From: Oscillospiraceae bacterium
GTDB taxonomy: Bacteria > Bacillota > Clostridia > Christensenellales > Aristaeellaceae
Assembly: GCA_031270865.1 (NCBI GenBank)
Contig: JAISWI010000063.1
Location: 45,087-109,086, forward strand
DNA: 64,000 bases
Direction: 5' to 3'
In this document: piece after piece, positions 15,780 to 63,962 of the stretch
How positions within the stretch are numbered: the first letter of the stretch is position 1
How the letters are laid out: the number at the start of each line of letters is the position of its first letter
The notes under the pieces: model-generated
Seen by the model: only the letters and a program-made list of their open reading frames with translations
The model's database searches: none
What the model was told of the DNA's origin: nothing
Program-made: the position numbers and the translations under genes

Positions 15780-15856
15780 CGGGGTGTAGCGCAGCCTGGT
15801 AGCGCGCGTGCTTTGGGAGCATGAGGCCGGGGGTTCGAATCCCTTCACCCCGACCA
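15780..15856 (+). tRNA. tRNA-Pro (anticodon TGG)
   Basis: 77 bases with encoded CCA. The acceptor stem is CGGGGTG with CACCCCG, the anticodon loop TTTGGGA reads TGG, and the T-arm contains GGTTCGAATCC. First gene of six co-oriented tRNAs. Confidence 0.95.
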
Positions 15857-15862
15857 ATAGAC

Positions 15863-15937
15863 GGCCCCTTGGTCAAGCGGTTAAGACATCGCCCTTTCAC
15901 GGCGGTAACAGGGGTTCGAGTCCCCTAGGGGTCACCA
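15863..15937 (+). tRNA. tRNA-Glu (anticodon TTC)
   Basis: 75 bases with encoded CCA. The acceptor stem is GGCCCCT with AGGGGTC (one G-U pair); the anticodon loop is CTTTCAC. It starts six bases after tRNA-Pro. Confidence 0.95.
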
Positions 15938-15978
15938 ATCTCCCTTAAAACTCCGCCGGGGACGCGCGGCGCGTGGAC

Positions 15979-16055
15979 GGGCCTTTAGCTCAGACGGTCA
16001 GAGCGGTCGGCTCATAACCGATTGGTCCGGGGTTCAAGTCCCTGAAGGCCCACCA
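15979..16055 (+). tRNA. tRNA with CAT anticodon (Met elongator or lysidine-modified Ile2)
   Basis: 77 bases with CCA and anticodon loop CTCATAA. The first pair is G1-C72, so it is not the initiator. The acceptor GGGCCTT/AAGGCCC has C4-G69 and C5-G68, pairs known as recognition elements for TilS in E. coli, so Ile2 reading ATA is possible. Elongator tRNA-Met of some bacteria shares these pairs, and the two cannot be separated by eye. tilS is encoded at 29777-31126. Confidence 0.9.
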
Positions 16056-16098
16056 GAACCCCGGCGAAGGCGTGGTTTTCCTTCGATGCCAGTTGATC

Positions 16099-16174
16099 GC
16101 TGGCGTAGCTCAATTGGCAGAGCAGCTGATTTGTAATCAGCAGGTTAAGGGTTCGAGTCCCTTCGCCAGCTCCA
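16099..16174 (+). tRNA. tRNA-Thr (anticodon TGT)
   Basis: 76 bases with encoded CCA. The acceptor stem is GCTGGCG with CGCCAGC and the anticodon loop TTTGTAA. Confidence 0.95.
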
Positions 16175-16245
16175 GTTACCAGCGATGCGTACGGGCTTGG
16201 CAGGGCGAGGCTTGGTTAGCGCCTGGACAGGCGCTACAGGGAAGC

Positions 16246-16330
<85 letters not shown>

Positions 16331-16334
16331 ACAC

Positions 16335-16419
16335 GCGGGAATGGCGGAATTGGCAGACGCGCTAGATTCAGGTTCTAGTGAGCAATACGCTCATGCAGGT
16401 TCAAGTCCTGTTTCCCGCA
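16335..16419 (+). tRNA. tRNA-Leu (anticodon CAG), CCA not encoded
   Basis: 85 bases with a long variable arm. The acceptor stem is GCGGGAA with TTCCCGC, the discriminator is A16419, and the anticodon loop is TTCAGGT. The following bases are CGG, so CCA must be added after transcription, unlike the five tRNAs upstream. All stems are intact. Confidence 0.93.
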
Positions 16420-16429
16420 CGGATGGGAG

Positions 16430-22420: not shown

Positions 22421-22478
22421 TGGAGGAACAACCCACCCTGGCCACGAGGGACCAGCGTGACGCTGGACCCACTTGGCG
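22421..22478. repeat. Dispersed palindromic element, copy 2 (left half)
   Basis: It starts TGGAGGAACAACCCACCCTG and continues through GAGGGACCAGCGTGACGCTG. It keeps the left arm and the inner hairpin but lacks the right outer arm. It lies 97 bases after the mazF stop and directly after the terminator. Confidence 0.85.
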
Positions 22479-48456: not shown

Positions 48457-48502
48457 TGGAGGAACAACCCACCCTGGCCACATGGGTCCAGCGTCACGCT
48501 GG
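48457..48502. repeat. Dispersed palindromic element, copy 3 (left half)
   Basis: TGGAGGAACAACCCACCCTG, then GGGTCCAGCGTCACGCTGG. The copy is 31 bases after the rplQ stop and lacks the right arm; other repeat material replaces it. Confidence 0.85.
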
Positions 48503-52816: not shown

Positions 52817-52893
52817 TTGAGGAACAACCCACCTTGGCCACGAGGGTCCAGCGTCACGCTGGACCCTCGTGGCCAGGGTAGATTGTTCCTCCA
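52817..52893. repeat. Dispersed palindromic element, copy 4 (complete near-perfect hairpin)
   Basis: The inner arms CCACGAGGGTCCAGCG and CGCTGGACCCTCGTGG are exact complements around a three-base TCA loop. Outer arms GAGGAACAA and TTGTTCCTC extend the pairing with few mismatches, forming a hairpin of about 36 base pairs. It begins two to three bases after the DUF1858 stop and lies between convergent genes. Confidence 0.9.
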
Positions 52894-52902
52894 TGCTCCA
52901 TG

Positions 52903-54435
52903 TTATTCCGAGGCAATCATAAGCAGTTTCATGATGGGCAGTGTGGCGGAGGTCTCGCCATCGCCGCCCTCAATGGTTATAACCTCCCCAGTAATCTCCC
53001 CATACACAGTGACTTCACCGTCCGGATCGACCTGCGGCGCCTCATCCGCCAGGCAATAGACCCTCGCGGTTTCAGCCTTACCGGGCGCCGTGACCAATAT
53101 CATATTGGTTACACCCTCATCGTCCGACGCGGAGTTAGCCACCCCTGACCATTTCACAATCCTTCCCGTGTACTTCGCGGGATCGGCCACCAAATTCGCG
53201 TACGATAGACTCTTGACCTGCGACTTCAAATACGCCTCATAATCGTCCGTCTGCCATCTTCTTTCGAAAACATACTGTATTGTCCGTTCCTCGAACCCCT
53301 TCTTCCTTAACGTTACGGTCACAACACGCGTCCCTGCCGGCTCCTGCCCCAACTTAATGGAGAACGCGCCGTCGCTTGTCGTCCTCTTGCTCACGTTACC
53401 GCCGTCCGAGACGGTGATCTCTGTCCCTGCCAGCGTCACCCCTGCCAATCTTGGCTGCGCGTCCCATACCTCGCCTTCCAGCGGCGTATTCAAGTTGAAC
53501 GGTATCCTTGCCGTGTTCGCGGTCAACTGCGTCTCACTTACGCTCGTCTCCCTGCCTTCCAACGCGGACTCTACCCGCAGTGTCCATGTTCCTTCCCTTG
53601 GCAGTGTCAGGTTGAGCGTAAACGCCCCGGTTGACTTCGCGACCGCCTCCCCTACCTTAAACGGCGCGTCGCTGCCCTGCGTCAAACTCCCCGTCACCAA
53701 TGCCCCTGGCGCTGTCGAACCCTTCACCCTTACGCTCAACCCATTCGTCTCACGGACCAGCGGCTGCTCAAATACCAACTCTGTTGGCAGCAACGGCATC
53801 TCCAGCCTTGGCTCAAACGTCGTCTCAGCGATCCACTGGTCGAACAGCTGGACCTCCTTCGAAGTCAGCTGCCGACCTGTCGCCTCTATCTGCAGCGTGA
53901 CCTCCCTCCCGTTTCGCACGGTGAACGCCATCAACCCTCGCGCTATGGTCTCGCCCTCCGAACGCCGGATGTATGTCAGGCGCAGGTAACGCCCGGACTT
54001 CGACGGATTCTTCCATTCCGCCGCCGAGAACCTCACCCCCGTCACTTTCCACGCGGCGTCGTCGAGATAATCCGCTCGTATCGCGTTACGCATAGCCGTC
54101 GTATACCGATCAATGTCGAAATATACCGCCGAGACGCTGGTTTCCTCCATCCTTACCCGCATCGCGATATCCGCGCCGGTGCCGAACGCCGCGACTATCA
54201 CGTTATCCGAGCGCATCACTTCCGCCGCGACTTCCGAAGATACCCCCAGAAGCGCGGCGTACCTTGTCGCGGTCTCCGGCGTAACGACAGTCCATCCATC
54301 CGGGAACGCGGTTACCAGCTGGTATCCCGGCATCGTGGTAGTCAGCGCGATCGCCTCCGCCGCGAACGCCAGTATAGCCATTACGCACAAAATTACGACG
54401 CCTGCCCTGCCCCGGATCAATCTCTTCGCGGTCAC
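52903..54435 (-). CDS. Secreted protein with Ig-like and OB-like regions (paralogue B)
   Basis: 510 residues, GTG start behind AAGGAGGAG. An N-terminal signal or anchor (VVILCVMAILAFAAEAIA) precedes a globular domain at about 30-210 (LVTAFPDGWTVVTPETATRY). Two Ig-like stretches follow (about 230-320 and 325-395), and the end (about 410-510) resembles an OB-type fold (LVADPAKYTGRIVKWSGVA). The architecture matches the next upstream gene product, so the two look like distant paralogues. Function unknown. Last gene of the envelope operon. Confidence 0.75.
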   Translation of the reverse strand: MTAKRLIRGRAGVVILCVMAILAFAAEAIALTTTMPGYQLVTAFPDGWTVVTPETATRYAALLGVSSEVAAEVMRSDNVIVAAFGTGADIAMRVRMEETSVSAVYFDIDRYTTAMRNAIRADYLDDAAWKVTGVRFSAAEWKNPSKSGRYLRLTYIRRSEGETIARGLMAFTVRNGREVTLQIEATGRQLTSKEVQLFDQWIAETTFEPRLEMPLLPTELVFEQPLVRETNGLSVRVKGSTAPGALVTGSLTQGSDAPFKVGEAVAKSTGAFTLNLTLPREGTWTLRVESALEGRETSVSETQLTANTARIPFNLNTPLEGEVWDAQPRLAGVTLAGTEITVSDGGNVSKRTTSDGAFSIKLGQEPAGTRVVTVTLRKKGFEERTIQYVFERRWQTDDYEAYLKSQVKSLSYANLVADPAKYTGRIVKWSGVANSASDDEGVTNMILVTAPGKAETARVYCLADEAPQVDPDGEVTVYGEITGEVITIEGGDGETSATLPIMKLLMIASE

Positions 54436-54483
54436 ATTGATTCTCCTCCTTATATGTTGTCGCCGCCGGCTTCCCAGCGCCGC

Positions 54484-55968
54484 CTACCTTAGGTAGAACA
54501 GCCCGTCTAACACGGGCATGGTCTCGCCGTCGACCGTCTCCGTCACGCCGCGCGGCGCGCCCAGTACTGTCAGCACGTCGCCAGCCTCAAACCGCAGCGT
54601 CTGGCCGCAGTACACTAGCACGGGATCCTGCCAGCTGCCCAAGCCGGGATTGGATGTGTAGAGCACCAGCGCGGGCAGCCCGCCCTGTTCCCCTACCGCG
54701 CCTACGCGTCCACGCAGCTCGACGTTCTGTCCGGCAGTGTCCTTCGCGTTCTCGGACAACCGCTGGTATGGTATGCTCCTCGCGTTTGCGCGGAAGTCCT
54801 GGATGAGTTCCGTTTCGCTGGAAACGCGCTCCAGCGTTACCTCGACCGTGGATGGCGCTAGCCCGGGCGCGGCGGCGGTCACCGTATACGAGGCGGACTG
54901 GCCGCGCCGGACGCTCAATGAAAAGTAGAGATAGCCGCTGCTGTTCGCGGGGCCGCGCATCGACTGGCTGGGCGTTACCAACTCAATGGAAGCCTCGGGC
55001 AGCGTATACACGTACAGGTCGAAAGGCCCGGCGACCGGGTCGACGCTCGGCGCGACCGCCAGCGGCGTTACGCCCTGCGCGACTAGCACGGAGTGGACGC
55101 TCCTGGCCGATGATCCCCCACGCTCCGCGCTGAGCGCTACGCGGCGCTCGCCGTTCCCGCCGCCAAGCTCAAACTCGAACGCGAACAACCCGTCCGCGCC
55201 AGCCTTGACGCTCCCAACCTCGCGCCCGTCAACGGTTAGCGCAACCCTCGCGCCGGGTTCTGTCGCGCCTTTCGCCGCGATCTGGCCGCCGCCTGTCCAC
55301 GCGGGCAGCGCGGTAATCGTGAGCGGCAGCGATCCGGACGCTTCGATGGTCCGCGCGATGCCCGTAAGCGGCGACGGCGTGTACCCAGCCGACGTGTCCC
55401 GCGTGGGCGGAACCTTGTCGATGAATTGGACGCGCGGCTTGATGGATTCCAGCGCGGCAAGCGCGGCGTCCATGCCCGCGTCCCATGGCGCGCGCGCGGT
55501 TAGTTCGATCAGCATGCCGGATCGCAGCGATATATCCTTAATCTGGCATATTGATTCATATGCGTTGGTAAGCCTGAACCAATCTCCACCGACCCATTCG
55601 GACGAATCGGCAAACGCCGCGAACGGTTCCAGCGTCGCTATATCGCCCGCGCCGCCGTCCGGCCAGTCGCGTTCCGACATCGTGACGCTGACGCCGCCGT
55701 CCGTCACCACCTCGAACAACACCCGTTCGGCGTAGTATGACGCGGCCAGCGCGTCGGCGTTAAGCCCGCGCCCGGCCAGCCAGTCCGAATGCTCACCCAG
55801 CGTCCGCGGAGTGATAACGCGCTCATCCGCCGACGTTTCGAGGCGTATGCCCGACTGCGGGAACACGGTAACATCCGCTATGGTGCGGGCCAGCGGCATG
55901 GCGGCCAATCCCGCCGACAGCGCGGCGGCGCATAACCGTTTACCGGTAAGGCGGTTTTCCCAACTCAT
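54484..55968 (-). CDS. Secreted protein with Ig-like and OB-like regions (paralogue A)
   Basis: 494 residues from the ATG at 55968, which overlaps the DUF368 stop by four bases and has AAGGAGG some 13 bases upstream. Signal peptide LCAAALSAGLAAMPLARTIA. A globular domain (about 30-190) is followed by Ig-like stretches (ITALPAWTGGGQIAAKGATE, and a second near 310-390) and an OB-like end (RLSENAKDTAGQNVELRGRV). It shares order and several patterns with paralogue B. The longer frame to 56175 is a shadow of DUF368. Confidence 0.75.
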   Translation of the reverse strand: MSWENRLTGKRLCAAALSAGLAAMPLARTIADVTVFPQSGIRLETSADERVITPRTLGEHSDWLAGRGLNADALAASYYAERVLFEVVTDGGVSVTMSERDWPDGGAGDIATLEPFAAFADSSEWVGGDWFRLTNAYESICQIKDISLRSGMLIELTARAPWDAGMDAALAALESIKPRVQFIDKVPPTRDTSAGYTPSPLTGIARTIEASGSLPLTITALPAWTGGGQIAAKGATEPGARVALTVDGREVGSVKAGADGLFAFEFELGGGNGERRVALSAERGGSSARSVHSVLVAQGVTPLAVAPSVDPVAGPFDLYVYTLPEASIELVTPSQSMRGPANSSGYLYFSLSVRRGQSASYTVTAAAPGLAPSTVEVTLERVSSETELIQDFRANARSIPYQRLSENAKDTAGQNVELRGRVGAVGEQGGLPALVLYTSNPGLGSWQDPVLVYCGQTLRFEAGDVLTVLGAPRGVTETVDGETMPVLDGLFYLR

Positions 55969-56864
55969 TCTTGTGAGACGGCCTCCTTTGGCGCGTCGCC
56001 CTTGGCGAACGCGCGTTCGAAGAATATCGCGACGGCCATCCCCGCTATCAGCAGCAGCGAGTGGATCAGCCAGCGCGAGGCGAAGCGCGGCCAGTCGAAC
56101 ACGATATACACCGAGCCAAGCACGAACCCCATCACCGTGAACCGGCTGGGCGCGGGGAAGCGGCGGAACAGCCACTCAACGGCCTTGACCAGCGCGGCCG
56201 CGCACGCCAGACCACCGGCCGCCGCCAGCGCGAGCGGGCCTATGTGCCCCAATGGATGGCCAAGCGCGTCCATCATCGGCTGGTAGATGCCCAGGTAGAG
56301 CATCAGGAACGACGAGCTTACCCCCGGCACGACCGTCGCGAACGCGTACACCGCCCCGCCCAGCACGGCGGTCCACCCCGCGAACTCGCGCGTACCGCCG
56401 TCCAGCCCATCCACGCCACTCAGCAGGCTGAACAGGAATATCAAGGCGAACCCCGCCGCCGCCAGCGAGAGGTTTACTATCCAGTGGCGGGGCGTCCACG
56501 CCGACGCCGTCGCCGCGCTTTTGTTAATCGCGCGGGGGGCTTTGCCCTCGGTCGCCTGTTTCCACAGCGCGGGCAGCCCGCCCAGCACCAGACCGATGAA
56601 AAGGATGGTGATGCTAGCCTCCGCGCGGGCGAACACCACGCTCATTGCCTGCGCCGTGACCAGCACGCCCGCGCCACCGCCAATGACCAGCGGCGCGAGT
56701 AACCTGGCGTTGCCCCGCGCGTCGCGCCGGAAGTGGACCAGCGCGGCCAATATCGGCTGGTATACCCCCATCGACAGCGCGATCACGCCGCCGCTCACGC
56801 CCGGCAGCACGCACGCGATCCCCAGAATCACCCCGCGCAGCCCGTTAACCAACCATTCCAGCAT
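55965..56864 (-). CDS. popT: DUF368 membrane protein, PopT-type undecaprenyl-phosphate translocase
   Basis: 299 residues, about eight hydrophobic helices. The family signature repeats as GIACVLPGVSGGVIALSMGVYQ near residue 16 and FATVVPGVSSSFLMLYLGIYQ near residue 175, an internal inverted duplication. DUF368 proteins have been shown in other bacteria to return the C55-P lipid carrier across the membrane for wall synthesis. GGAGGTAACGG precedes the ATG. It sits between the giant repeat protein and the two secreted proteins. Confidence 0.88.
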   Translation of the reverse strand: MLEWLVNGLRGVILGIACVLPGVSGGVIALSMGVYQPILAALVHFRRDARGNARLLAPLVIGGGAGVLVTAQAMSVVFARAEASITILFIGLVLGGLPALWKQATEGKAPRAINKSAATASAWTPRHWIVNLSLAAAGFALIFLFSLLSGVDGLDGGTREFAGWTAVLGGAVYAFATVVPGVSSSFLMLYLGIYQPMMDALGHPLGHIGPLALAAAGGLACAAALVKAVEWLFRRFPAPSRFTVMGFVLGSVYIVFDWPRFASRWLIHSLLLIAGMAVAIFFERAFAKGDAPKEAVSQE

Positions 56865-56900
56865 CCGTTACCTCCATGATTTGTGTCGCCGCTTCTTTTG

Positions 56901-59900
56901 TTATGGCAACGTAATCTCCCCGCCGCCTTGAACCCGCCACCCAGCCGCCCGCGCGTCCTCGTACCTGGCGAAACCTATGTCCGCGTTACGCGCGCGTTGG
57001 TTCGACTCGACGATGACCAGGTCGGTCGCCATCGGCTGTTCCATACGGAATCTCAGTTTGCTGTTGATCTCGGGCACGCCGTCCGCGCGGCGCGTCGGGA
57101 TGAACCCTTCCGGCGCGTTTACTGATATGCGGTACGTGCCCGGCCTTACCCCCTCGAATTCGTAGAAGCCGTCCGCGTCCGTGACGGTTTCCGCGACGGG
57201 TATCCACTGCCCGTCGGAGCCGCGTTCCAGCGTCAGAGTTACGCCCTGCATGCCGGGTTCGCCGGAATCCTGCATGCCGTTCAGGTTGTGGTCGATCCAC
57301 GCGTAGTCGCCCACCGTGCCCGAGCGCGTCGCGCCCGCGCTCACGCCGGGCAGCGAGCCGCCCATCGCCAGCGTGAGCGTCGGCGAGGAGGATTCGCCGC
57401 CGTCGGTCGTCTCCGCCATGGAGCCGCCGCTGGTCTGGCGCGTGAACATCATGCCGTCCGGGAGCGTGAAGCGCGCCGTAACCGCGCCGGGCAGCAGCCC
57501 CTCTATCAGGTATGAGCCGTCCTCCCCGGTCTCGATGGTGAAATCGCCGTGGTCGGTCCGCGCCGTGACGGTTACCCCGGCCAGTCCGGGTTCATCCGCG
57601 CCGCGAAGACCGTCCGCGTCCATGTCCTCGAACACCTCGCCCGACACGCTGCCCAGCAGCGTCGCGCCCGAGCGCGGATCGTCGCGGGATTCGCCCATCG
57701 CGAGCGTCGCCTCCTCGACGACGCTTACGCTAACATAATCGCCTGGCCAGACGTACGCCAGCGCGTACGTTCCGGGGCGCAGGGATTCAAATCGGTAACG
57801 CCCATCGCCGCCCGTTGACGCGCTGGCCGTAATGCCAAACTCATCGGTTAACGTTACCGCGACGTCGGCCAGCGGCTGTTCGCCGGGACCGCGCTGGCCG
57901 TCGGCGTTCGCGTCGACGTACGCCTCGATGGTGAGCGCGCCCGGCTCGACCGCGCCCGCGCCGCACTGCGCCAGCGATTGTCCCGGTTCCAGCGTGAACG
58001 CGCCGCTGAACGCCTGCCGCCCGCCGGTCAACGGCATGACGCTGCCGCCCTCGAATTGTAATTCTGGTTTAGTAAAGATCAGTCCGTCCGGCAGCGCGGC
58101 ATGAAGCCGGTACTCGCCTGGAAACAGGGATTCCATAGTGTAGCCGCCGTTTTCCGAGGTCCGCGCCTGTCGGACCGCGCTGCCCGACGCGTCCAGCAGC
58201 GTTACCATCACGCCGGGGAGCGGCGGTTCGTCCGTGCCGGGCATGCCGTCGTAGACCGTGTCCAGCCAGACCAGCCCTGATATTGACGCTGACCGGATCG
58301 CGCCGATGGTGTCCAGCTTCAGCCGCTCGCCGGAGCGCAGGTTGAACGTGATCGGGTCAGAGTTTATAGTGTTTGTGAACAGATAACCATCCGGCAGCGT
58401 AACGGTTAACGAGTAGATACCAGGCTTCACGTCGCTGAACCCGAACGCGCCGTCCTCGCCTGTCGTCGCCGAACCCACGGGCGTGTCAGACCGGAACAGC
58501 GTCAATGACGCGCCGGGCAGGGGCGAATCCATCTCGTTTAGGATGATTCCTACAATCGATGCGGGCTTGTATGCGGCGATATCGCCAATCGTCATGGAGC
58601 CGCCCATGCTAAGCGTCACGCCCCACGGCTGCGCGTCTATCGAGGGCATGAGTCCATCCGGCCAGTCCGCGACGACCGAGTACGCGCCGGGACGCAGTTC
58701 TTCGATAATAAACTTTCCGTTTCGATCCGTAACCGCTTCGGCGACGGTACTCCCCGCGCCGTCGCGTATCGTGAACGCCGCGCCAGCCACGCCCGGCTCA
58801 TCATCGCCCCACGAGCCGTCGCCGTTCGTGTCGGTGTAGGCCGCGCCAGCGAGGATGCCCAGCGCGGCCAGCGGCGGCGCGGTTAGGCCGCGCGGATCGT
58901 CGCTGACGGTGAAGGCGCGTGTTACAGACCGGGCGTCGGTCTCCTCGAACGCCCAGCCGCTTGCCGGAAGATTATATGTGATGATATAATCGCCCGGCCT
59001 CAACCGTTCCAGCGTGAACGAGCCGTTCTCATTCGATAACGTTTCCGCGATGAACTGCCCAGCCGCTGTCTCGACGCGAATGCCCAGACCCGTAGCGGGT
59101 TCGCCGTCCGAGCGACGCGCCGTTCCGACCAGATCGGCCAGCGGCGTGAGCGGTAATTGGGGCTGTACGGTGATTGAATCATAACCAACAATCATCGACC
59201 AAAGCGGTTGGTTGTAACCCAATGGCGGGGCGAAACCGGCCGGAACGCTTGATTCTATTAGATATTCGCCCGGCCTGACCCGCTCGAATACCGCCACGCC
59301 CCGCTCGTTCGTCTGTAGCTCGTCGATCGGTTCGCCGTCCTTCAATAGGGTGACGCTCACGCCGGCTAGCGGCTGGTCCGCCGCGTCTTGCTGGCCGTTG
59401 TCGTTGCGGTCCTGCCAGACGAACGCCTCGACCGCCGCGACGCGGACCATCTCAACGCGCCCGACCGCCGCGCTTTGACCAGGCTCAAGCGTGAGCGTCT
59501 CGCCGAGCGCGGCGTCCGATGATTGTGTTAACGTCATATCGTTAGGCGCGGCTACGCGCAGGCGTGTCACCGTCGGGCGCAGCATGCTGAACAGGAATAT
59601 GCCGTCCTGATTAGTTGTTGTTGACAATAATTCGTTTCCCTGCGCGTCGATAGCCGTTACGGTGACGCCGGGGAGCGGCGATCCGCCGCCGTCGCTGGCC
59701 AGCCAAACGGTTCCGCTGACGCTCGCCGGAACGAACGCGATCCATTCGGCGCGGGCGTCGCCGCCGACCGTGAGGTCAAAACTGGTGATACCGCTGTAAA
59801 GAATCATCCCGTCCGGGAGGCTTGGCTCAATCGTGTACGCGCCAGCCGCCAGCCCGTCGAACGCGAACGCGCCGCCGCTGTCCGATACAGCCGTCGAGGT

Positions 59901-62900
59901 CGTGCCGTCCGGCCTGGTCAGCCGCGCTGTGATGTTGGTGAGCGCCTCGCCCGCGTGGTCGAGTATCGTCCCGCTGATCGACGCGCCGGGCACGATGGTT
60001 ATATTGCGTGAAAGGTTTTCGCCGGATCGGAGCGTGATGGTCTCGCTGGACGGCGTGTCCGCCTCAAGCGCGGCGGCATCGGGGAGATTCCATAAAAGTG
60101 TATATTTATTCGGTTCGATGTTCTTCAGCAAAAACCATCCGTCGTCGCTGACGGTCGTTTGGTAGACCGCCGCTCCTGACGCGTCCTCAAGGACGACCGA
60201 CGTCCGCGCCTCAACGGATGGGGCCAGGCCTAGCTTTTTCACCTGGCCGGACAGCGACGCGGCTTCCTGAGCGGCCAATTCGAGCGACAGGGTTTCGCCG
60301 TACGGTATTTCGACATTGACCGGAAAGCCGCTCGGCAGGTAGCCCGTCGGCAGCGTGAGGACCACCTCATACTTGCCGGGCGTTAGCCCGCCGATCCGGA
60401 ACGCGCCGGACTCGTCGGCGGCGGTTTGCGCGTCGGGTTCGCCGTCACGCCGCAGCGTAATATATATATCGGTATAAGCGTTTTGCGGCATCGACGCCGG
60501 GACGGTGACCGTCCCGGCCAGCGAGCTTTCCGGCAGCACGGCGAACCGCCAACCCGATTGGCCAAGGACCGCGTAACGCGCGGAGGTTCGCTCGTGTAGT
60601 TCGTCAAACGACAGGGTCAGCGTGGCGTTGGAGGGCACCTGCCTATTGAACGCGAACGCGCCGTCCGCGTCCGTGGTGGTTTCGGCGATCACGCCGCCGG
60701 ACGCGTCGCGGGCTGTGACGCGTACCAGCGGCACGCCCGTGTCGTTCAGTCCGCGTATCCTGTCCATGTCGGGATCCTCGAATACGGAGCCTTGCGACTG
60801 TCGGCGCGGCGTGACCAGCTCGACGCGCGTGTTTTGCGAAGACTTGCCCTCGACGACGCGCCATTTATCCGCGGCGGTTTGGACGGGGGTTTCCACGCGC
60901 GTGGATACGCTCAGCGTGACCGCCGAATCCACCGCCAGGCGCGGCAGCGCGCGGATGGTCGCCTCTAGCGTTAGGTCGTCCAGCGTGAACGGCTTATCCC
61001 CTGTCAGCGTGATCCGCGCGAAACGCGCGCTATCGCGTACGTCGTCCCAGCGTATGCTCGTCGGCAGCGTTGAGGTTCCCGCGTCCGTCCAGTTCACGCC
61101 GTCGCCGACGGACACCCGCGCGGTAGTTATGCCATCGGCGGCGGGAATGGTTATGCCAGATAACGATACGCCGGATTCGGCGGTCATGCCGATCGTGAAT
61201 TCGATATTGCTCGCTGGCAATGGCTGATCGGCTGGTATGATGGTCAGCCGGGTCTCGCGTTCCGCCGATAGGTCGAGCGTGGATTCCGAGAGTATCAGCG
61301 CGGGCGCGGCGGGGTTCAGCGCGCCTTCGGGTATCGGTTCGCTGGTGAATACCGCTTGAGGGTGTGTGACGGCGGTTGTGCCGTCGCCGCGCAGGTATGG
61401 CTCGATGGTAATCTCGCGCGAGACGGCTTGACGCGACGGGTCGGCCATGTAACCGTTGGCGGCCTCGGTCAGCGTAAGGAGGTATCGCCCCGGCTGGATC
61501 GGCTGCGGCGCGTTGTAGTAACTGCTGTTCTCCAGTGTGAATTGTATGGATGGCTGATCCGGCGTGTCAAGGCTTGCCAGCTCGAACGCGCCGCCGACGA
61601 TCGCGCCGCCGCTTGGGTCCTGGTGCGCCAGCGAGAACAGTCCAAGAGCGCTGTCCGCGAAGGTTTCCAGCGTCGCCGTGTCGCCCGGATACAGCGTTAT
61701 GGTGTGAGTTGTGGGATCGGGCTGGAAGCCGTCGGCGGGTTCGGATTCGACGAGCGTATAGGTCGTGCCATCCTGCGCGGCGGGTAAGGCGACGCCTGAA
61801 GCGGCCGCCGCGCCGATCGTATTCCCGGACGCGTCAAGGATGGTGTAATCGCCTGGGAGGTCGGTCAGGCTGACAGCGCCGCCGCCGTCGATCACGCGGC
61901 CCAAGCGCTCGACGTTTAGCAGCGCGTCCTTAGTGAATTCCAGCGTGAGGGTGGTCTCCTCGCCGCCGTGAATCTCGAAGTCCGCCAGCCGCGTAAGCGC
62001 GGTGTAGCCCGTCGGAGCGTCCGTGAGTTCAAGCGTGTAAGCGCCTTCGGGCAGGTCGGACAGCCAGACCCCGCCAGCGTCGCCCGTGGTCAACGCGCGT
62101 GAAAGCGACGACCCGCCGCCAGCGGACGCGCCGCCATGGATGGACACGCTGACCCCGCCAAGCGGCGCGATGGCCGAGGCCGCCTCGTGGGATTGGGTGG
62201 TAAGGCGAAGCTGGCCCGTGCCGTCGTGAGTGAGTATGTCCCAAGCGAAGGTTTGGCCGGATTCCAGCAGTATGGAGCGTTCGGGCTCGCGGCCGGCGCG
62301 GATTGTGTATTCGCCGGGCAGCGCGGCGGGATGATCGGACACGTTCTGGTCAGCGCGGCGGGCCAGTCCCGTGGCGTCGGTCAACATGCGGATGGTCGAG
62401 CCGTCGGGCGCGGTCAGCGTTATGGTTTCGCCAACGACGGGCGTGAGCGTCTTCTCGCCGGACAGCGTGAACGCCGCCGATTGGACGCGGATCGCCAGCA
62501 GTGGCATAGGTTCGCAGTCAACGCTAAGGTTGGATATGCCGCCGCCCAGCGCTGTTATGATGTATGGGGCGATGGGTACGTAGCCCGGCGGGAGTTCCGG
62601 CGTGAATTGGTATTCGCCGGAGGGGAGTACGCCGATCCATGGCTTGCCGGGCGAGATGGAGCCGGAGGCCGGGCTTGCGTCCGTTGGATCGGCGAGCGTG
62701 AACGTGATAGCTTCGTTGGACGATATTGAGACGATGCCGCCGGATAGTTGGTTGGCGATGGTTAAGGTTTCGCCGAATGGGGTCGAGTTGGTTAGCGGGA
62801 TCAGGTCGGTTATCATGGAATAACCCTCTGGAGCGGTTAGCTGGCGCAGGTATAGCGGCGGCTCGGTTGGGAGAAGGAGGGGTTCGGGCAGGGCGTCGAC

Positions 62901-63269
62901 ACTAACGATCCACGGGCGGGTTGGGTTGGAGGGGTCAGGGTATGGTTTTTCTTCGCCCCAAGCGGTGAGCGCGACGACCGCGAAGGTCACGCCGGAAAGG
63001 GACGCGCCGTTGATCGGCAGCGTCTGGCCGTCGCTAAGGACTATGTAGGAGGGTTCGCCGCCGTTGATTGCGGATGTGCCGCTTACGGCGGCCAGCCACA
63101 GCGTAGCGGGGGCAGAGGCGTTAGGGTCGGCGGTGATGTAGGTGGCGCCGCCTACAAGCGCCGAGGCGCCGGGGGATAAGGGCGAGAGGTCGGCCAGCGC
63201 GGAGGCTGGCAGTAATGTCAATATAAGCAAGCAGGCAGCCGCTGCCATGCGCGTTAACGGTTTATCCAT
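56901..63269 (-). CDS. Giant secreted SdrD-B/CnaB-like repeat protein, 2122 residues
   Basis: A signal peptide (MAAAACLLILTLLPASALA) starts the protein. Residues ~30-800 hold prealbumin/SpaA-like beta domains (EGYSMITDLIPL, PGEYTIRAGREP, LPGDYTILDASGN). From about 820 to the end come some 13 repeats of ~75-130 residues of the SdrD-B/CnaB type, with the pattern GxVWxDxNxxGxxDxxExPLxGVxVTL and the end LRPGxYxLxxxxPDG. Roughly six have a calcium-site-like DxNxDGxxD. There is no LPXTG motif, membrane helix or obvious wall-binding domain at the C-terminus, which ends GGGEITLP. Probably a cell-surface fibre or adhesin; anchoring is unknown. Confidence 0.88.
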   Translation of the reverse strand: MDKPLTRMAAAACLLILTLLPASALADLSPLSPGASALVGGATYITADPNASAPATLWLAAVSGTSAINGGEPSYIVLSDGQTLPINGASLSGVTFAVVALTAWGEEKPYPDPSNPTRPWIVSVDALPEPLLLPTEPPLYLRQLTAPEGYSMITDLIPLTNSTPFGETLTIANQLSGGIVSISSNEAITFTLADPTDASPASGSISPGKPWIGVLPSGEYQFTPELPPGYVPIAPYIITALGGGISNLSVDCEPMPLLAIRVQSAAFTLSGEKTLTPVVGETITLTAPDGSTIRMLTDATGLARRADQNVSDHPAALPGEYTIRAGREPERSILLESGQTFAWDILTHDGTGQLRLTTQSHEAASAIAPLGGVSVSIHGGASAGGGSSLSRALTTGDAGGVWLSDLPEGAYTLELTDAPTGYTALTRLADFEIHGGEETTLTLEFTKDALLNVERLGRVIDGGGAVSLTDLPGDYTILDASGNTIGAAAASGVALPAAQDGTTYTLVESEPADGFQPDPTTHTITLYPGDTATLETFADSALGLFSLAHQDPSGGAIVGGAFELASLDTPDQPSIQFTLENSSYYNAPQPIQPGRYLLTLTEAANGYMADPSRQAVSREITIEPYLRGDGTTAVTHPQAVFTSEPIPEGALNPAAPALILSESTLDLSAERETRLTIIPADQPLPASNIEFTIGMTAESGVSLSGITIPAADGITTARVSVGDGVNWTDAGTSTLPTSIRWDDVRDSARFARITLTGDKPFTLDDLTLEATIRALPRLAVDSAVTLSVSTRVETPVQTAADKWRVVEGKSSQNTRVELVTPRRQSQGSVFEDPDMDRIRGLNDTGVPLVRVTARDASGGVIAETTTDADGAFAFNRQVPSNATLTLSFDELHERTSARYAVLGQSGWRFAVLPESSLAGTVTVPASMPQNAYTDIYITLRRDGEPDAQTAADESGAFRIGGLTPGKYEVVLTLPTGYLPSGFPVNVEIPYGETLSLELAAQEAASLSGQVKKLGLAPSVEARTSVVLEDASGAAVYQTTVSDDGWFLLKNIEPNKYTLLWNLPDAAALEADTPSSETITLRSGENLSRNITIVPGASISGTILDHAGEALTNITARLTRPDGTTSTAVSDSGGAFAFDGLAAGAYTIEPSLPDGMILYSGITSFDLTVGGDARAEWIAFVPASVSGTVWLASDGGGSPLPGVTVTAIDAQGNELLSTTTNQDGIFLFSMLRPTVTRLRVAAPNDMTLTQSSDAALGETLTLEPGQSAAVGRVEMVRVAAVEAFVWQDRNDNGQQDAADQPLAGVSVTLLKDGEPIDELQTNERGVAVFERVRPGEYLIESSVPAGFAPPLGYNQPLWSMIVGYDSITVQPQLPLTPLADLVGTARRSDGEPATGLGIRVETAAGQFIAETLSNENGSFTLERLRPGDYIITYNLPASGWAFEETDARSVTRAFTVSDDPRGLTAPPLAALGILAGAAYTDTNGDGSWGDDEPGVAGAAFTIRDGAGSTVAEAVTDRNGKFIIEELRPGAYSVVADWPDGLMPSIDAQPWGVTLSMGGSMTIGDIAAYKPASIVGIILNEMDSPLPGASLTLFRSDTPVGSATTGEDGAFGFSDVKPGIYSLTVTLPDGYLFTNTINSDPITFNLRSGERLKLDTIGAIRSASISGLVWLDTVYDGMPGTDEPPLPGVMVTLLDASGSAVRQARTSENGGYTMESLFPGEYRLHAALPDGLIFTKPELQFEGGSVMPLTGGRQAFSGAFTLEPGQSLAQCGAGAVEPGALTIEAYVDANADGQRGPGEQPLADVAVTLTDEFGITASASTGGDGRYRFESLRPGTYALAYVWPGDYVSVSVVEEATLAMGESRDDPRSGATLLGSVSGEVFEDMDADGLRGADEPGLAGVTVTARTDHGDFTIETGEDGSYLIEGLLPGAVTARFTLPDGMMFTRQTSGGSMAETTDGGESSSPTLTLAMGGSLPGVSAGATRSGTVGDYAWIDHNLNGMQDSGEPGMQGVTLTLERGSDGQWIPVAETVTDADGFYEFEGVRPGTYRISVNAPEGFIPTRRADGVPEINSKLRFRMEQPMATDLVIVESNQRARNADIGFARYEDARAAGWRVQGGGEITLP

Positions 63270-63554: not shown

Positions 63555-63962
63555 GTGAAGGATTTGGACTCCGCTGCGGCGTTCTTTGAAGCGACGGATA
63601 AGTTTGCCGTGGAGGTGATGGGAGCAAGGATAGAAGAGGTCGGCGAGGGGTTCGCGGCCGTGGGGTTGGAGCTGGAAGGCAAGCATAGGAGGGTCGACGA
63701 CGCGGTTCAGGGCGGCGTGATATTCACGCTGGGGGATTACGCGTTCGCCGTGGCGACGAACGACGAGCGGACAAGGGTTGTGTCGCTCTCGAATACGATC
63801 AACTTTCACAGGCAGCCCAAGGGGAAGCGGCTGCTGGCCGAGGCGAGGTTGGAGTCGCTGGGGAATACGATACAATCGTATCTGGTGCGGATTAGCGATG
63901 AGTTGGGCACACTGGTCGCGACAATGACCGTGACCGGGTTCACGGTACGTAAGCAAAGTTAA
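63555..63962 (+). CDS. Hotdog-fold thioesterase, PaaI type
   Basis: 135 residues from the GTG at 63555, behind AGGAGCGG. The hotdog core is RVDDAVQGGVIFTLGDYAFAVATN with the central helix, and FHRQPKGKRLLAEARLE follows. PaaI-type enzymes hydrolyse acyl-CoA thioesters; the substrate is unknown. The frame upstream of the GTG (from 63453) covers the promoter region and is rejected. The palindromic element begins four bases after its stop. Confidence 0.85.
   Translation: MKDLDSAAAFFEATDKFAVEVMGARIEEVGEGFAAVGLELEGKHRRVDDAVQGGVIFTLGDYAFAVATNDERTRVVSLSNTINFHRQPKGKRLLAEARLESLGNTIQSYLVRISDELGTLVATMTVTGFTVRKQS

Follow-up and report, generated by a model that had tools for sequence, protein, structure and literature searches.

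The proteins encoded at the locus described here have their closest described counterparts in the MSCRAMM/Sdr proteins, such as SdrD of Staphylococcus, and in the DUF368/PopT transporters, with the photosystem II extrinsic protein PsbP/CyanoP and the BSP/C regions of Bap as further points of comparison. As set out in the accessible part of PMC9876793, members of the DUF368 family are C55-P translocases, and genetic interactions tie DedA (PF09335) to the same C55-P task. Glycan transfer to acceptors, protein included, frees the carrier lipid, which is recycled by BacA/PAP2 and DedA/DUF368 according to the accessible part of PMC12826051. Here we analyse a window of 64,000 nucleotides from a clostridial contig, in which the gene for a very large repeat protein (the giant) stands at the head of a set that also encodes a DUF368 protein and two related, predicted secreted proteins, P3 and P4.

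Organization of the four-gene unit

The genes of the unit and the gene that bounds it upstream are as follows.

63269-56901, minus strand: giant, 2122 aa, open reading frame read at this place
56864-55965, minus strand: DUF368 gene, 299 aa, PF04018 membrane protein, predicted undecaprenyl-phosphate translocase
55968-54484, minus strand: P3, 494 aa, ATG at 55968, predicted secreted paralogue of P4
54435-52903, minus strand: P4, 510 aa, GTG start, predicted secreted PsbP-like/Ig/Ig/OB-like protein
63555-63962, plus strand: hotdog thioesterase gene, divergent, upstream bound of the unit and not a member

The initial annotation had described four leftward genes with gaps of 36 and 48 bases and one 4-base overlap, and all four reading frames and their spacing were reproduced: 36 bases separate the giant gene from the DUF368 gene, the DUF368 gene and P3 overlap by 4 bases, and 48 bases lie between P3 and P4. 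This spacing varies in other genomes that carry the unit: in G002 the giant and DUF368 genes are 157 bases apart, and in G069 the gap between DUF368 and P3 reaches 368 bases. Downstream, the unit of our genome (G000) faces a convergent RhaA gene, and opposite-strand genes bound it on this side in five of the six genomes with the operon, G015 being the exception. On the upstream side, all four genomes of its own genus have an opposite-strand gene as the boundary, while G015 and G069 reach contig edges; the end of the window is also the end of our contig.

Two kinds of site besides the genes were examined.

63342-63314, minus strand: promoter-like site TTGTAA-17-TAGAAT, 9 of 12 positions, 45-73 bases before the giant start
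52819-52891, no strand assigned: near-perfect palindrome just after P4, 36-nt arms and 1-nt loop
12566-12582, 22439-22455 and 48475-48491: single palindrome arms

The claim of one good promoter was not confirmed. The upstream site matches at 9 of 12 positions and belongs to a set of 11 promoter-like sites in 14 kb, where 4.0 are expected. Just upstream of it the same strand has three further 9/12 sites, and the best match of the minus strand (11/12) falls inside the giant gene at 61570-61541. The upstream site is kept in the three congeners (a single change in G003), whereas the 11/12 site inside the giant was not kept in them. The palindrome, which lies between P4 and the RhaA gene, is a possible terminator or repeat element. 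Its 17-base core has three more copies in the window with 1-2 mismatches, giving five matches in total against 0.03 expected, so that it may belong to a repeat family rather than being a plain terminator. Elsewhere in the window, an array of six tRNA genes (Pro, Glu, Met, Thr, Tyr and Leu) occupies 15780-16420.

Conservation and distribution

The same gene order, on one strand, recurs in six genomes of three genera (G000, G001, G002, G003, G015 and G069), so the search for it among clostridial relatives supports a conserved unit. Consecutive locus tags (FACS1894184_00850/_00870/_00880 and AGMMS49992_14940/_14960) suggest the operon in two more genomes, the order there being read from the tag numbers, with the DUF368 genes, and P4 of AGMMS49992, not directly seen. 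Identity between the DUF368 proteins of the three genera is 45-60 %, and the downstream neighbours differ among the operon genomes (RhaA, FtsH, an ABC transporter or TraX); order kept over this distance amid differing neighbours points to more than chance. The pN/pS values of 0.23-0.43 against the congeners G001 and G002 suggest purifying selection on each of the four genes.

In order to survey giant-like proteins, the N-terminal 840 residues of the giant were searched against 200 genomes of the family at a threshold of E 0.001, and 27 genomes matched, our own included. The five strongest matches, at E 3.4e-132 or lower, are those of G000-G003 and G069; G015, at E 1.0e-17, ranks behind eight genomes in which the operon was not seen. 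Among the five of these eight intermediates that were fetched, G034, G120 and G188 carry a giant-like gene that does not have the three partner genes next to it; the giant-like gene of G100 runs off the contig, and in G072 the nearest DUF368 gene is on a different contig. The giant-like gene also stands alone in G030 and G060, and at the other loci examined the genes for P3/P4-type proteins have unrelated neighbours. The initial annotation had named unlinked genes in relatives as an observation that would speak against the unit; the genes are indeed unlinked outside the three genera, but inside them they are not. As judged by comparison of the sequences, this is a real, conserved and lineage-limited four-gene unit. 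A single origin of the cluster is probable, since the operon DUF368 copies form one clade (see below) and its components mostly occur apart in the rest of the family.

The giant repeat protein

The giant divides into two regions.

57096-60791, minus strand: 13 C-terminal SdrD-B/CnaB/CarboxypepD_reg-like repeats, residues 827-2058
60792-63269, minus strand: N-terminal region with three weaker repeat-like copies, residues 1-826

A profile built from the protein's own repeats found 16 copies, of which 13 are the C-terminal ones. This agrees with the earlier description of a 2122-residue secreted protein with about 13 C-terminal SdrD-B/CnaB-like repeats, secretion being predicted. The repeats are of the SdrD-B type by Pfam, where SdrD_B (PF17210) scores 451.2 bits over 12 stretches, followed by CarboxypepD_reg (325.1 bits) and SpaA (236.9 bits). 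Among solved structures, the closest by sequence are those of SdrD and further B-repeat proteins of staphylococci, residues 1877-2064 matching SdrD (10ps_A) at E 2.2e-24, although the scores against the NCBIfam SdrD and SdrC models, 210.1 and 165.8 bits, stay far below the cut-offs of 2500 and 1700. Five of the 13 C-terminal repeats carry a DxNxDG-like calcium motif. The protein has a net charge of -142 and only 20 lysines, a number that speaks against isopeptide bonds in the majority of the repeats. The six operon giants range from 1296 to 2363 aa, with net charges of -106 to -180 and 5-8 calcium motifs each. The giant is predicted to be a calcium-stiffened rod.

All six operon giants begin with a hydrophobic, signal-like segment, as judged by eye. 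At the other end, neither an LPXTG-like motif nor a membrane segment was found in the last 120 residues of any of the six, the highest hydropathy in this stretch being 1.16. Elsewhere in these proteins the Kyte-Doolittle maximum is 1.38-1.69; the top value, in an internal stretch of the G015 giant, lies slightly above the usual mark of 1.6. SLH (PF00395) is not among the 21 Pfam matches of our giant, and the operon genomes contain one weak SLH domain, in our own genome, with none found in the other five.

None of the six operon genomes, which are 78-93 % complete (78-88 % for G001-G003), gave a match to sortase (PF04203); the control of this search responded in 3 of 14 known genomes. By comparison, 23 of 27 other family genomes tested (16 from the sample of relatives and 11 picked for giant-like matches) have sortase, and it is missing from G011, G028, G100 and G115. 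The last three are among the 11 genomes chosen for giant-like proteins, and the operon was not seen in them. Since the absence of sortase and the operon share one branch of the DUF368 tree, their association may reflect a single event or loss. The initial annotation had proposed that the cluster may build or attach a surface fibre; with giants that have neither LPXTG motif nor membrane segment, in genomes where no sortase was found, such attachment is unlikely to be by sortase. With SLH domains nearly absent as well, the giant must be held in another way or released, and a surface fibre, the likely product of this set, would be held without the usual covalent anchor.

The DUF368 protein

The presence of a DUF368 protein in the unit is borne out by a PF04018 score of 119.7 bits, well above the Pfam gathering cut-off of 26. 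The NCBIfam polyprenyl-phosphate transporter equivalogs NF052563 and NF052564 score 71.2 and 72.1 bits against a curated cut-off of 400, and the protein is for this reason classed as a DUF368 family member and not as PopT itself. Its predicted activity is the return of undecaprenyl phosphate to the inner leaflet of the membrane.

Of the 200 family genomes, 152 contain a DUF368 match; in each of the six with the operon, the copy in the operon is the sole one. The tree was built with 30 rows (29 different) from fetched loci, which cover part of the 152 genomes with a match, and in it the six operon copies form one clade with support of 100/98, adjoining copies from G072, G204 and G167. DedA (PF09335) is present in G002, G015 and G069 and was not found in G001 and G003, which are 88 and 78 % complete. 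Our genome has only two adjacent DedA pieces, neither of which reaches the cut-off and one of which contains an in-frame stop (G000:C43:7035-7359, outside the window); they represent a decayed gene or an assembly error. A dedicated carrier-lipid supply had been suggested for the cluster, and the distinct subclade of the operon DUF368 proteins favours that idea. However, a sole DUF368 match per operon genome, together with DedA pieces that stay below the cut-off in our own, shifts the balance from a dedicated supply towards a general recycler: the operon probably contains the translocase that serves the cell as a whole, not an extra, dedicated one.

The paralogous secreted proteins P3 and P4

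P3 and P4 align over 440 columns (hhalign, 99.1 %), in keeping with the earlier view of a paralogous, predicted secreted pair with globular, Ig-like and, here weakly supported, OB-like regions. The structure model of P4 gives the following domains.

53812-54354, minus strand: N-terminal domain with PsbP-like fold, model residues 10-190
53254-53793, minus strand: two Ig-like domains, model residues 197-376, Big_6 below its cut-off
52906-53211, minus strand: C-terminal OB-like domain, model residues 391-492

In the model, the N-terminal domain agrees with PsbP in overall fold. At the sequence level, the PsbP family (PF01789) matched in 1 of 18 homologues (E 0.0099) and was not among the best 25 of 39 families for 28 members of A1. 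Structure prediction, proposed earlier for both paralogues, gave the P4 model described above and a poor model of P3 (pLDDT 56.5); P3 is predicted by homology to share the PsbP-like/Ig/Ig/OB-like build. The called P3 of G069 has no signal segment.

P4-type proteins are widespread in this clostridial family, and in the loci examined their genes adjoin RodA/FtsW, PGA_cap or housekeeping genes. P3/P4-type proteins without a linked giant or DUF368 gene occur elsewhere in the family, which implies some role apart from this operon. In G083 (L110 6188-11337) a DUF368 gene is followed on the same strand by Exo_endo_phos and beta-lactamase-like genes and then by a P4-type gene, and the coordinates of G214:C49:9683-14736 indicate a similar DUF368/P4-type spacing. 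A third protein of our genome, from a 684-aa frame at G000:C6:2182-2856 outside the window, has a 55.5-bit match to the Ig/OB part of the P3/P4 profile. The PsbP-like/Ig/Ig/OB-like secreted type lies outside the Pfam and NCBIfam models and is the most original part of the unit.

Discussion

Our preferred explanation, held tentatively and with somewhat less than even confidence, is that the four genes form one operon that builds a non-covalently held surface fibre while keeping the carrier lipid circulating. The giant would be secreted as a calcium-stiffened acidic rod, and P3 and P4, also predicted to be secreted, may hold or assemble it at the cell surface. The DUF368 protein would meanwhile return undecaprenyl phosphate to the inner leaflet, and co-expression would match carrier-lipid recycling to envelope building. 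It is a more specific and improbable proposal that a PsbP-like/Ig/Ig/OB-like adaptor pair at the DUF368 protein assembles the giant rod, sortase anchoring having been replaced in one branch.

A rather unlikely alternative is an operon for envelope homeostasis. In this reading the DUF368 protein and the two secreted proteins help to maintain the wall during alkaline or other stress, and the giant is an exoprotein, either released or loosely bound, rather than part of an organised fibre. Bacteria without their DUF368 protein show alkaline-dependent wall defects, as reported in the accessible part of PMC9876793, and the wide distribution of P4-type proteins beside RodA/FtsW, PGA_cap or housekeeping genes fits such a role, as does the G083 locus, where two genes separate the DUF368 gene from the P4-type gene. 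It leaves unexplained, however, why the giant keeps its leading place in all six genomes.

A further reading is that unrelated envelope genes came to lie side by side by chance and share no function. The separation of the parts in other family loci examined is what such an origin would predict, but the order is kept across three genera despite the divergence of the DUF368 proteins and the change of downstream neighbours, and we regard chance as very improbable. It also seems improbable, if less so, that the unit serves a glycosylated exoprotein, the giant being modified outside the membrane with sugars carried on undecaprenyl, and the lipid released in this way being recycled by the DUF368 protein. 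The Ser/Thr content of the giant (17.9 %) and the release of carrier lipid on glycan transfer mentioned above are consistent with this, but N-x-S/T sites are barely above chance (12 against 8.7) and none of the four genes encodes a glycosyltransferase.

The surface-fibre reading would offer a genetic link between a family of carrier-lipid translocases and specific secreted partners. The unit also brings to light a secreted type, widespread in one clostridial family, for which Pfam and NCBIfam have no model, and a branch in which large surface-type repeat proteins persist though sortase was not found. If the partnership is true, both the way in which such proteins stay on sortase-free cells and the tie of DUF368 activity to one surface structure become testable.

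In comparison with known systems, the giant resembles the MSCRAMM/Sdr proteins in its C-terminal SdrD-B repeats with calcium-type motifs, which are more numerous than the B-type repeats of SdrD. It differs from them in having neither LPXTG nor C-terminal membrane segment, in a genome where sortase was not found, and its 21 Pfam matches include no adhesin A domain. The DUF368 protein is like the DUF368/PopT transporters in its PF04018 match, and unlike them in its low equivalog scores, its distinct subclade and its operon setting. P4 departs from the BSP/C regions of Bap, to which only its Ig-like region matches by sequence, with whole-protein TM-scores of 0.21-0.24. From PsbP/CyanoP it is set apart by an identity of 14 %, by the fusion of the PsbP-like domain to Ig and OB-like domains, and by its nature as a clostridial secreted protein.
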